NCBI GenBank assembly: GCA_947624485.1
Contig: CANQKM010000010.1
Coordinates: 1-64,000 of the forward strand
Direction of reading: 5' to 3'
Source of the DNA: an uncultured Clostridia bacterium
Lineage (GTDB): Bacteria; Bacillota; Clostridia; UBA1381
Length of the DNA stretch: 64,000 bases
Each line of letters opens with the position of its first letter. Within the stretch, counting starts at the first letter, position 1. The translations under genes were made by a program, and so were the position numbers. This document shows, piece after piece, positions 1,396-52,906 of this stretch. The notes below the pieces were generated by a model. That model saw only the letters and a program-made list of their open reading frames with translations. It was not told the origin of the DNA and searched no databases.

Positions 1396-1424
1396 TTGAC
1401 ATTACTGCCGACGCGTGATACAAT
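1396..1424 (+). promoter_or_regulatory. sense promoter of type I TA-like locus 1
   Basis: TTGACA (1396-1401), a 17-nt spacer and TACAAT (1419-1424). The predicted start near 1431 places the complementary leader arm (1436-1463) almost at the 5' end of the RNA. Confidence 0.8.
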
Positions 1425-1488
1425 AATTACAGGCTATGGAAGGCATGCAAAGGGCGGTTTGTCACTCTCTGAATAAGGGGGTGATTTT

Positions 1489-1563
1489 ATGGACATGAAT
1501 TTACTTATTCAATTGGTAATGCTAATTATCATTCTTGAAATAATTCGGAACATAAAAAAATAG
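1489..1563 (+). CDS. 24-residue hydrophobic peptide, putative type I toxin (locus 1)
   Basis: A very short ORF with a strong AAGGGGGTGA ribosome-binding site. The peptide starts MDMNLLIQLV, has one continuous Leu/Ile-rich membrane segment and ends IRNIKK. The leader (1436-1463) is complementary to the 3' tail (1604-1636), and a hairpin with AATAGCCGC/GCGGCTATT arms begins at the stop codon. A consensus promoter on the opposite strand drives an antisense RNA over the tail. Small hydrophobic peptides under such control are typical of type I toxins (TxpA, BsrG and Fst-like, and holin-like toxins). Toxicity is inferred. Locus 2 (40708) has nearly the same leader and tail, and locus 3 (40374) has the same plan. 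Confidence 0.72.
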   Translation: MDMNLLIQLVMLIIILEIIRNIKK

Positions 1564-1636
1564 CCGCCCCGACCAAGGAATGCGGCTATTTTCGCAAACC
1601 TAGGACAAACCGCCTTTAAAGCGGATGCCTTTCCAT
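1554..1636 (-). ncRNA. putative antisense antitoxin RNA of locus 1
   Basis: A minus-strand promoter is followed by about 80 nt ending in a GC-rich stem (1559-1567 with 1582-1590) and a run of seven T on the transcribed strand, which is a good intrinsic terminator. The RNA would be fully complementary to the 3' part of the peptide mRNA. It also contains a near copy of the mRNA leader arm. RNA ends are estimated from the promoter and T-run. Confidence 0.65.
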
Positions 1637-1642
1637 ATGCCT

Positions 1643-1671
1643 ATTATACCACACCCGTTATCTTATGTCAA
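1643..1671 (-). promoter_or_regulatory. antisense promoter of locus 1
   Basis: Read on the minus strand, TTGACA (1666-1671), 17 nt, TATAAT (1643-1648): a perfect sigma-A consensus pointing back into the peptide gene's 3' region. Confidence 0.85.
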
Positions 1672-1690
1672 GTGAATGGGTGTGGTATTT

Positions 1691-2179
1691 TTATTGTTCG
1701 CCGACGTCGATAATGTGGATGGGGCGCATATCAACATAGCTGTACGTTGACAGCGGGCGGCAGTTCGCGTCGTAGGAGTTTGCGGCAATAAGTATTCCGG
1801 ACGGGGTGTTGTTGCCGGCGTCCACCACCACGGGACTGTGGTCAAACCGCGTTCCCTCGTCGAATTTTAGCTGAATAATGTCGCCGTCGCGTATCTCGTC
1901 CAATCCCGTCACGCGTCCGCGCGGCCCCGCGCCGCGGTTCGTCGTGAGAAAACGGTACAGCTCGTCAACGCCCGTCCACGCCGGAGCGCGGTTGTTTAAT
2001 GAGATGTAGTACCAGCCGTAAATCGGCGTGTAATTCATAACGCCGCTGCCCGCGTACAGGCATTGCGACGCAAAATTTGTGCAGTTGCCGCCGAGGTCGG
2101 AAAAATCGAAGTATTCCGGGTTGCGCCGGTATGCCCATTCGTTCGCGTAAGCGACCGCGGCGGCTCTGTTATATTCCAT
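1691..2179 (-). CDS. putative amidase-domain protein (Amidase_6-like)
   Basis: 162 residues with the NlpC/P60-like hallmarks of the putative amidase family: GGNCTNFASQCL near residues 30-41 supplies the candidate nucleophile Cys, and FDHSPVVVD near residue 113 supplies the His. No signal peptide is visible, so it is either cytoplasmic or exported by another route (for example phage-type release). GGGAGGAT lies just upstream of the ATG. The family is often linked to peptidoglycan peptide or amide bonds; the substrate here is unknown. It sits alone between toxin-like locus 1 and the ABC exporter and may be part of the integrase-associated cargo. Confidence 0.75.
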   Translation of the reverse strand: MEYNRAAAVAYANEWAYRRNPEYFDFSDLGGNCTNFASQCLYAGSGVMNYTPIYGWYYISLNNRAPAWTGVDELYRFLTTNRGAGPRGRVTGLDEIRDGDIIQLKFDEGTRFDHSPVVVDAGNNTPSGILIAANSYDANCRPLSTYSYVDMRPIHIIDVGEQ

Positions 2180-40278: not shown

Positions 40279-40307
40279 TTGCAATAAATGACATAATGTG
40301 ATACAAT
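40279..40307 (+). promoter_or_regulatory. sense promoter of type I TA-like locus 3
   Basis: TTGCAA (40279-40284), 17 nt, TACAAT (40302-40307). Divergent from the stalk gene promoter, with 10 nt between the two -35 boxes. Confidence 0.75.
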
Positions 40308-40373
40308 AAAACAAGCCGAAAGGCTCGGGTATTGACAGCGAGCGGTAGGCGGTTGTTTCGGAAAGGAAATATT

Positions 40374-40436
40374 ATGAGCGAAATAACGATAAACCTTATC
40401 TTAATTTTGCTTATTGTATGGATAATCAAGAAATAA
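40374..40436 (+). CDS. 20-residue hydrophobic peptide, putative type I toxin (locus 3)
   Basis: The peptide begins MSEITINLIL and ends VWIIKK, with a single hydrophobic run between. GGAAAGGAAAT is the ribosome-binding site. The leader arm GAGCGGTAGGCGGTTGTTTC (40340-40359) is complementary, with few mismatches, to the tail at 40510-40530. A hairpin AACCGCC / GGCGGTT starts at the stop codon. A consensus antisense promoter lies at 40545-40573. Sequence similarity to loci 1 and 2 is weak at the DNA level, but the plan is identical. Toxin activity is inferred from architecture. Confidence 0.68.
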   Translation: MSEITINLILILLIVWIIKK

Positions 40437-40538
40437 CCGCCCTATATCGGTAAGGCGGTTATCTGGGTAGAATAATCTTTTCTACACATTTAATTATACT
40501 ACTGAAATAGAAACAACCGTTTTGCCGCTCCTATCTTT
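40426..40538 (-). ncRNA. putative antisense antitoxin RNA of locus 3
   Basis: Predicted from the minus-strand promoter to the hairpin 40435-40460 and its T-rich tail (TTATTTCTT on that strand). It is longer (about 110 nt) than at loci 1 and 2 because an extra hairpin, GTAGAA / TTCTAC (about 40468-40486), is included. Confidence 0.6.
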
Positions 40539-40544
40539 ACCTTG

Positions 40545-40573
40545 ATTATATCACTAAAAAATATGTATGTCAA
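40545..40573 (-). promoter_or_regulatory. antisense promoter of locus 3
   Basis: On the minus strand TTGACA (40568-40573), 17 nt, TATAAT (40545-40550): perfect consensus. Confidence 0.85.
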
Positions 40574-40641: not shown

Positions 40642-40707
40642 GGCACACGGAAGAAAGATGGCTTATTAAGGGCGGTTCGTCACTCTCTTATACAAGGGGG
40701 TGATATT

Positions 40708-40785
40708 ATGGAAATTGTCGAAATGATTGTGACATTATTGATTATAATAGCACTAATCGAATTGATAAAATACATAAAAAAATAG
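40708..40785 (+). CDS. 25-residue hydrophobic peptide, putative type I toxin (locus 2)
   Basis: Begins MEIVEMIVTL, has an Ile/Leu-rich membrane segment and ends IKYIKK. The leader is nearly identical to locus 1 (GTCACTCTCT then AAGGGGGTGAT before the ATG). Leader arm GGCGGTTCGTC (40671-40681) pairs with tail GACGAACCGCC (40827-40837). At locus 1 the same pair reads GGCGGTTTGTC with GACAAACCGCC, a compensatory change that argues for selection on the pairing. The hairpin AATAGCCGC / GCGGCTATT (40781-40814) follows the stop codon. Probably a membrane-acting toxin held silent by structure and by antisense RNA. Confidence 0.72.
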   Translation: MEIVEMIVTLLIIIALIELIKYIKK

Positions 40786-40859
40786 CCGCCCCCACGACCA
40801 ATGCAGCGGCTATTTAGCTCGTATTGGACGAACCGCCTTTAAAGCGGAAGCCTCTTTCT
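40776..40859 (-). ncRNA. putative antisense antitoxin RNA of locus 2
   Basis: About 80 nt from the minus-strand promoter to the hairpin at 40781-40814 followed by seven T on that strand. Fully complementary to the peptide mRNA's 3' region. Confidence 0.63.
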
Positions 40860-40865
40860 TCTTTT

Positions 40866-40893
40866 ATTTTAACATAAAAATAATATTTGTCAA
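40866..40893 (-). promoter_or_regulatory. antisense promoter of locus 2
   Basis: On the minus strand TTGACA (40888-40893), 16 nt, TAAAAT (40866-40871). Confidence 0.75.
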
Positions 40894-51169: not shown

Positions 51170-52906
51170 ATGAAGAAAATCATTTCGGCGATACTGTCGC
51201 TGACGTTATTCGGCGTTGCGGCAGGAGCGTACAATTTTCCTGAGCCGGATTGGGGTGCGCTGCTGCGTGAAAGAAAAACGATGGAAACGTCAACCGATTT
51301 TGAGCTTTACGTTGAGGGCAATACTGAAAGCGCGCCGTACTACGGGGCGAAGCTCGAACCGCGGGCGGGAACATACATCGGCATGATAGGAGAGCAATCG
51401 TCTCCATTTCAGCCGCTCGGTTCGTGTCTTACGTATATGGAGGTGCCTTTACGCCAGACGGAGCCGTATTACCCGCCTTCACCGACCGATAATGTTGTAA
51501 CCATGGTAGGCTGGAATACGTATTCCATGGACGATGTTGATTATGACTATATACGGGCGGCGCTGGATAATCTCAGCAAATACAACAAACCGATGTTTAT
51601 ACGATTTGCGAATGAAATGAATTGCTCCAATCTCGGCGACGAACCTGATAAGTACGTTCAAGTTTTCAGGAATGTGGCGAACATGATACATGAATATCCG
51701 AATTTCGCTGTTGTATGGTCACCGAACGATATGGGCGCGCTGGACAGACCGTTTGAGTATTATTATCCCGGCGACGAGTATGTTGACTGGGTGGGTATAA
51801 GCTGCTACATGACAAAGTATTTCACAAATGAACAGAATACCAAGCTTGTGGACTCACAGTATTTTATGACGGGCGATTACGCGTGGGCAACAAATAAAAT
51901 CAAGCCGTTTATGAAGTTTTTGAGTGATTACGGCATACAAAAACCGGTTATGATAAGCGAAGGCGGCGTTGCAAGATACAACAGCTTCGGTGACGATTAC
52001 ACAGGCTGGCATGAGCCTCGCCTCAGAAATATGCTGTGGAATGTCATTATGAAATATCCACAGATAAAAATGATTAACTATTTTAACAATCCGATGAGCG
52101 GTCACGGCGAACATTATTATATTACAGACTATCCCGAGTCCGCGAATATCTTCAAAGAAGCAGCAGCGAACGGAGCATATTTGAGAAGCGCGGACGCTGC
52201 ACCGGATTTTGTTTTCAGTCCTGCGAATAACGGTGAGACGCTTGCAGCGCATGACGGAATTGTTAAGTTATACACGCTTGCGTATTTTGCGAACCGTCCC
52301 GATGTTGCTGTTACATATAAGATTGACGGCGTGTGGATCCATGAGACAAACAGCATACCGTATATCTGTAACTTTGATATAAACAGCATAACGGACGGCG
52401 AGCATACGCTGACAATAGAAGCGGCGGGACAGTCAAAGCGGTATCAATTATACAAGCGCGGCAATGCCATGTGCTTCGGAAAAGAACCAGATCTTTCTGC
52501 AATACAGGCTCCCGCTGCGCCGAACCCGCCCGATAATACTGCTGCGGTTTTTGAGGATGTGGGGATTTCGGTGTTGCTGAAAGGGAAGAAACTGTCGTTC
52601 GACCAGCCTCCCATCATTGTGGACGGACGCACTCTCTTGCCGCTTCGCGCTATTTTTGAGGCTATGGCTGCCGCCGTGGACTGGGATCAGGACACAAAAA
52701 CCGCCACGGCAAGACGCGGCAGAGTCACGGTAGAAATAACCATAGGTGACAACAAAATTTATAGAAACGGAGAAGCAGACAAGCTTGACGTTCCGGCACA
52801 GCTCGTCAACGACAGAACGATGGTTCCTGCGAGAGCCGTCGCCGAAGCGTTCGGCGCACAGGTGGACTGGGACGGTGACAGCCGAACGGTTACCATAAAT
52901 GAGTAA
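51170..52906 (+). CDS. secreted GH26-like glycosidase with stalk domain
   Basis: 578 residues. A signal peptide (about 1-20) precedes a TIM-barrel with candidate acid/base Glu149 in IRFANEMNCS and nucleophile Glu264 in VMISEGGVARY, the clan GH-A pattern of GH26 (mannanase/xylanase) enzymes. WVGISCYM lies between. An Ig-like domain (about 340-430) is followed by a C-terminal copper-amine-oxidase-N-like domain (about 461-578, DGRTLLPLRAIFEA and NDRTMVPARAVAEAFGA), often used as a wall-associated stalk. The substrate is not certain. It follows the membrane protein closely, so the pair may act on one surface glycan. Confidence 0.82.
   Translation: MKKIISAILSLTLFGVAAGAYNFPEPDWGALLRERKTMETSTDFELYVEGNTESAPYYGAKLEPRAGTYIGMIGEQSSPFQPLGSCLTYMEVPLRQTEPYYPPSPTDNVVTMVGWNTYSMDDVDYDYIRAALDNLSKYNKPMFIRFANEMNCSNLGDEPDKYVQVFRNVANMIHEYPNFAVVWSPNDMGALDRPFEYYYPGDEYVDWVGISCYMTKYFTNEQNTKLVDSQYFMTGDYAWATNKIKPFMKFLSDYGIQKPVMISEGGVARYNSFGDDYTGWHEPRLRNMLWNVIMKYPQIKMINYFNNPMSGHGEHYYITDYPESANIFKEAAANGAYLRSADAAPDFVFSPANNGETLAAHDGIVKLYTLAYFANRPDVAVTYKIDGVWIHETNSIPYICNFDINSITDGEHTLTIEAAGQSKRYQLYKRGNAMCFGKEPDLSAIQAPAAPNPPDNTAAVFEDVGISVLLKGKKLSFDQPPIIVDGRTLLPLRAIFEAMAAAVDWDQDTKTATARRGRVTVEITIGDNKIYRNGEADKLDVPAQLVNDRTMVPARAVAEAFGAQVDWDGDSRTVTINE

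Follow-up and report, generated by a model that had tools for sequence, protein, structure and literature searches.

A probable type I toxin–antitoxin module with a BsrG/Hol_Tox-type RNA frame in an uncultured Clostridia bacterium

A short locus lies between a tyrosine recombinase gene (92-1291) and a gene for an Amidase_6 protein (1691-2179) in a 64,000-nucleotide stretch of contig CANQKM010000010.1 from an uncultured Clostridia bacterium (hereafter the window). The initial annotation took it for a membrane toxin under antisense control, related to TxpA/RatA, BsrG/SR4 and Fst, which possibly stabilises the integrase-linked segment. This raises the questions of what the locus is, which of the known systems it resembles, and whether it has anything to do with the integrase. 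The promoters, the ORF, the pairings and their compensatory changes, the purifying selection and the homology of the RNA frame were all read from the sequence, and on these grounds positions 1396-1671 with their flanks very probably constitute a chromosomal type I toxin–antitoxin module with the BsrG/Hol_Tox architecture.

Anatomy of the locus and predicted folding of its RNAs

All the features that the initial annotation had named were recovered in place and far above chance: the consensus sense promoter, the 24-residue hydrophobic ORF, the leader–tail complementarity, the hairpin at the stop codon and, on the other strand, the perfect promoter together with seven T after the hairpin (Table 1). 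The Shine-Dalgarno hairpin and the sense terminator are additional to them. The sense promoter predicts an mRNA start at about 1431, and the ORF, which is preceded by AAGGGGGTGAT, encodes a peptide whose best 17-residue hydropathy is 2.56. The locus thus has a gene for a short hydrophobic peptide, equipped with its own promoter and a ribosome-binding site, and, judging from conserved sequence signals, an overlapping antisense RNA gene with a promoter and a terminator.

Table 1. Features of the locus and their positions in the window
Feature	Position	Strand	Remark
Toxin mRNA promoter, TTGACA-17-TACAAT, TG before second hexamer	1396..1424	+	11/12 match
Predicted toxin mRNA, about 262 nt	1431..1692	+	predicted ends
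5′ leader arm pairing with 3′ tail	1431..1463	+	kept with compensatory changes
Shine-Dalgarno-sequestering hairpin, UCACUCUCU / AGGGGGUGA	1462..1484	+	9 bp, 1462-1470 x 1476-1484
Hydrophobic toxin-like peptide MDMNLLIQLVMLIIILEIIRNIKK, 24 aa, TAG stop	1489..1563	+	ORF translation
Seven-T tract of antisense terminator	1554..1560	-	encoded by A-tract of C-terminal Lys codons
Predicted antisense antitoxin RNA, about 83 nt	1554..1636	-	fully complementary to 3′ part of mRNA; predicted ends
Bidirectional hairpin from stop codon; antisense terminator	1557..1592	both	perfect 11-bp inverted repeat
Hypervariable antisense terminator loop region, YUNR motif	1566..1583	-	predicted recognition loop
3′ tail arm, includes conserved CCGCCTTTAAAGCGG hairpin (1610-1624)	1604..1641	+	
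Antitoxin promoter, TTGACA-17-TATAAT	1643..1671	-	12/12; conserved in 18/18 copies
Predicted sense terminator, inverted repeat 1646-1664 / 1670-1688, then TTTTT	1646..1693	+	overlaps antitoxin promoter

The minimum free energy of the predicted mRNA is -109.3 kcal/mol, whereas dinucleotide-shuffled sequences average -61.8 ± 4.6 (z -10.4, 0/200 shuffles); this, together with the conservation of the locus in many copies and genomes, indicates more than a chance fold. A long 5′/3′ helix (about 1431-1463 with 1604-1641) encloses the Shine-Dalgarno hairpin, a hairpin within the ORF and the stop-codon hairpin, while the sense terminator (1646-1688) folds separately. The core of this helix joins 1450-1463 of the leader to 1604-1617 of the tail, with 13 of 14 pairs being Watson–Crick and one G-U, and the predicted fold extends the complementarity outwards over both arms. 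The antisense RNA, in turn, is predicted to form a hairpin at its 5′ end and a terminator that carries seven U.

The Shine-Dalgarno hairpin (-11.3 kcal/mol, equalled in stability by 1/200 shuffles) shares the bases U1462-C1463 with the leader–tail helix; as they can pair either in the hairpin or with the tail, they would serve as switch bases. In the full mRNA the outer pairs of this lock are partly open (the unpaired probability at GAU 1483-1485 is 0.42-0.76), whereas they close (0.00-0.12) when the part complementary to the antisense RNA is withheld. The predicted extension of the lock upon occupancy of the tail has the same direction as the effect of SR4 on bsrG, where the lock grows from 4 to 8 bp (PMC6562991). 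The Shine-Dalgarno sequence is predicted to be sequestered in every modelled state, leaving no evident translation start, and this counts against our preferred explanation. One possibility is that transient structures formed during transcription could allow translation to start, as proposed for AapA3 (PMC6733600).

To explain these features we infer the transcription of the module, the order of binding, the action of RNase III, the toxicity and the physiological trigger as follows. The sigma-70 promoter would direct the synthesis of a roughly 260-nt mRNA for the 24-aa membrane peptide, which would fold into an inert form with the 5′ leader paired with the 3′ tail and the Shine-Dalgarno sequence held in its hairpin. 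The opposite-strand promoter, located inside the sense terminator, would yield an RNA of approximately 83 nt that ends at the shared stop-codon hairpin and is complementary to the end of the ORF as well as to the 3′ tail. The antitoxin would make its first contact through the variable terminator loop with its U-turn type YUNR motif and then zip along the tail, displacing the leader; this would free U1462-C1463 to form a longer Shine-Dalgarno lock, as SR4 does on bsrG, and the duplex would also be offered to RNase III. Upon the loss or dilution of the antitoxin, the peptide would be synthesised, causing membrane damage or growth arrest.

Conservation of the pairings and of the peptide

An alignment of 18 homologous copies (A1) served to build a covariance model, R1. 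When the leader–tail, Shine-Dalgarno and terminator helices as defined from this locus were scored in these copies, 98.1% of the cells were paired, compared with 94.8% after column shuffling and 42-51% for slid controls. Both sides had changed in 7 of the 29 pairs, a count which does not represent independent events because the copies are related; double changes affect 3 of the 8 stem pairs of the stop-codon hairpin. Cognate leaders and tails pair at -43.4 kcal/mol vs. -32.0 for non-cognate combinations (0/20,000 permutations), and for the outer arms alone the values are -18.6 and -11.0. The matching of the arms also holds with 11 non-redundant representatives. The leader–tail pairing, initially noted in a single sequence, is thus kept in relatives with compensatory changes, and both prediction and covariation point to a conserved mRNA structure that silences translation. 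The opposite-strand promoter occupies the same place in all 18 copies with 11-12 of 12 consensus letters (mean 11.6 vs. 7.8 in shuffles), whereas the sense promoter is weaker (mean 8.8 of 12, with one copy devoid of upstream sequence scored 0).

The peptide is under purifying selection, with a summed dN/dS of 0.22 in its own group and 0.11 in a second peptide group, although constraints on the RNA within the ORF may partly explain these figures. In the orthologues of two relatives (L010 and L011), only synonymous changes distinguish the ORF from that of this locus. Searches with the peptide returned no family match in Pfam, NCBIfam, PHROGs or PADLOC, including no match to PF16935 (Hol_Tox) at the Pfam cut-off, and searches of the open-access literature on PF16935 and on antisense-controlled holin-like toxins gave no description of this family. 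The Fst/Ldr superfamily was rejected, since the peptide, which has neither proline nor glycine, lacks the APXXXGXXX motif characteristic of that superfamily (PMC8309996). On its sequence, the 24-aa toxin-like peptide adds an unannotated putative toxin family to type I systems, one that protein-family libraries miss and the RNA frame finds.

Among 30 C-terminal Lys codons in the copies, 26 are AAA, vs. 44% in the genes of the window; the copies are not independent, so we claim no p-value for this bias. Such a bias is what one would expect if the final codons also serve as the U-tract of the antisense terminator. A single DNA stretch would then do three jobs, encoding the toxin C terminus, the stop codon and the antitoxin terminator. 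New points are this double use of the Lys codons, the carriage of different toxins by a single RNA frame, and a hypervariable antisense-terminator loop on an invariant stem.

Kinship with known systems and diversity of the copies

The covariance-model search proposed in the initial annotation revealed homologous modules widespread in the genus and family. R1 had matches in 15 of 16 genomes of the genus at E ≤ 1e-3, with as many as 14 in one genome, in 49 of 70 genomes of the family at 1e-5, and in 21 of a phylum-wide sample of 299 genomes. Those relatives that are named come from uncultured Clostridia MAGs with isolate names starting with 'Lapin', which we take to mean an origin from rabbit gut. 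Although R1 was built without Hol_Tox genes, its phylum-wide matches include true Hol_Tox peptides (PF16935, E 2e-9 and 2.5e-12), as well as a group of ITWxxLFSFCLV peptides that only grazes the PF16935 profile. As the hairpin was poorly aligned in a mixed alignment of both groups (A2), this was divided into A3 and A4. Models R2 and R3, made from those distant Firmicutes groups only, both returned this locus as the best match in the window, with E-values of 4.8e-11 and, for R3, built from Hol_Tox genes, 3.4e-14. Reciprocal covariance models thus place the locus within the Hol_Tox-type RNA frame.

The Rfam BsrG model (RF01412), run on the whole 2.7-Mb genome, gave a full-length match to this locus (24.9 bits, E 6.5e-4), and its top four matches (E 1.5e-8 to 6.5e-4) were all module loci of this family; the best copy in the genome scored 42 bits, below the gathering score of 55. 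Among 14 control genomes, RF01412 passes the cut-off in one. BsrG-type and Hol_Tox-type modules have the same RNA frame, but no searched protein library contains the peptide; we therefore classify the locus as a type I module with this architecture and not as a strict member of either family. The type I anatomy and the kinship to known modules put forward initially are thus strongly supported, the kinship to Fst is not, and the relatives are narrowed to BsrG and Hol_Tox.

The module resembles BsrG/SR4 of the Bacillus subtilis SP-beta prophage in its 3′-overlapping antisense RNA, its long-range 5′/3′ mRNA helix, a sequestered Shine-Dalgarno sequence that is here predicted to be further locked on antisense binding, and a terminator loop as the likely first contact. 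In both, different loci carry different toxins in the same RNA frame, as reported for bsrG and bsrE/H (PMC6562991). It differs in that BsrG has 38 aa (PMC8309996) vs. 24 aa here with no relationship between the peptide sequences, that this locus is multi-copy and falls below the Rfam gathering score, and that the overlap is predicted to be about 83 nt vs. the 100-140 bp reported for B. subtilis pairs. Hol_Tox (PF16935, putative holin-like toxin) shares with it the RNA frame, the stop-codon hairpin, the Lys-rich C terminus and the GGGCGG-type leader and tail, but the TYETLSLMI-type N-terminal motif of Hol_Tox is missing from the peptide. TxpA/RatA of the B. subtilis skin element is similar in its roughly 270-nt toxin mRNA and 3′-end antisense overlap (PMC3531473); its overlap is about 120 nt vs. 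the predicted 83 nt, and RatA acts through RNase III decay with no lock extension (PMC6562991), whereas extension is predicted here. Fst/RNAII of the Enterococcus par locus likewise comprises a small membrane toxin with its initiation region in a stem-loop; the antisense RNA here, in contrast, is a simple, fully complementary 3′ overlap.

By DNA similarity, the genome holds further copies on contigs C9, C6, C10 (at 40668, in the window), C26 and C20, and copies within one genome are 73-81% identical. The copy in the window, at 40648-40866, is a second full module with the same frame (209 bits with R1) and the peptide MEIVEMIVTLLIIIALIELIKYIKK. Directly upstream of it, at about 40282-40560, a third, more diverged module encodes the peptide MSEITINLILILLIVWIIKK and has GGCGGTTGTTTC / GAAACAACCG arms, a stop-codon hairpin and TTGACA-17-TATAAT on the other strand. 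Contig C13 (L008, about 52450-52540) bears a toxin-less remnant keeping the tail and the antitoxin promoter, which could either have simply decayed or be a solitary antitoxin with the C9 and 40648 copies as possible targets.

Comparison of the C9 and 40648 copies shows a nearly letter-identical leader, tail and antisense promoter with different peptides and loops, and the same pattern relates this locus to a copy adjoining the EF-Tu gene in a relative. Across the module, conservation is lowest in the loop of the antisense terminator (identity about 0.3), and the stem below this loop ranks among the best conserved (0.93-1.0). YUNR occurs in known recognition loops of the U-turn type; it is present in 17 of 18 antisense terminator loops, a weak indication by itself as the motif is common by chance. 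Duplex energies for four copies of this genome range from -167 to -181 for cognate pairs and from -91 to -121 for non-cognate ones; the latter binding is weaker but appreciable, so cross-talk between copies is possible. We tentatively suggest, at slightly less than even odds, that these gut Clostridia carry a genome-wide type I set (up to about 14 detectable modules per genome) with a common RNA frame, exchangeable toxin cassettes, specificity set by the hypervariable loop on its invariant stem, and partial cross-silencing between copies sharing leader and tail, such as those at 40648-40866 and on C9. If so, they would form a natural library of near-orthogonal antisense switches. The many paralogues in one genome are a natural data set on antisense RNA specificity, and they let one ask why bacteria hoard such modules and whether these are maintenance devices, phage-related or stress switches.

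A sister group (L007 on C20 of this genome, L021, L023 and L030-L032) has leader arms of the GGCTGTTCCGCC / GGCGGAACGGTC type and a longer 5′ leader, and model matches in three genomes (G010, G011 and G013) lie less than 1 kb from tyrosine recombinase genes. Related modules on two IMG/VR viral contigs (L158:9041 and L159) encode one identical peptide, MSLNDIFIISQIVVNSLFIVKIIKELIK, that differs from that of this locus, and their leaders and tails differ from each other by a compensatory A-U to G-C change. This locus itself had no DNA match in phages, and in plasmids only 28-nt chance matches in Borreliella.

The integrase and alternative explanations

In addition to its type I identity, the module might act as an addiction device that prevents the loss of an integrase-linked element from the chromosome. 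A gap of 0.1 kb separates it from the start of the recombinase gene, and one relative (G011) keeps this arrangement at 94-97% identity. Mapping of PF00589 against 80 modules in eight genomes placed five within 2 kb of a tyrosine recombinase vs. about 1.7 expected, a weak enrichment on which a general tie to recombinases was rejected. Of the 16 closest copies, 14 have no recombinase within 2 kb, and the other two are one orthologous pair; close copies in relatives are dispersed, one adjoining the EF-Tu gene and another the same Amidase_6 gene at a site where the integrase is absent. The initial suggestion that the module stabilises the integrase segment is thus unsupported, and we regard this role as unlikely. 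The contig ends just left of the integrase, and the element of the integrase itself may lie beyond this end. The first 30 bp of the window, also found at both ends of C26 (inverted) and near the end of C6, belong to a dispersed repeat that interrupted the assembly.

Less probable still is that the locus encodes a small membrane peptide under antisense control which has a harmless regulatory or structural function. The peptide is in no named family, and the many copies per genome might suggest a routine function, but reciprocal models show its RNA frame to be homologous to that of the Hol_Tox and BsrG modules. Moreover, the near-perfect antitoxin promoter and the weaker sense promoter (11.6 vs. 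8.8 of 12) are as expected if escape is harmful.

A MITE-like palindromic mobile repeat with an incidental ORF and promoters would account for the dispersed, multi-copy, about 270-bp unit with inverted arms and for its presence or absence at the EF-Tu site between genomes, where other repeats obscure the insertion boundaries; it is highly improbable, as same-genome copies are only 73-81% identical with compensatory changes in the arms, the ORF is under purifying selection and every copy keeps the antisense promoter. A roughly 170-nt palindromic repeat, GGCTCCCCTA...GGGGAGCTG...CACACGCAGTGTGACTGAGGGG, which an exact-pattern search did not find in the window, was observed at L043:2345-2516 and in more than 80 places in related genomes, with dozens of copies per genome.
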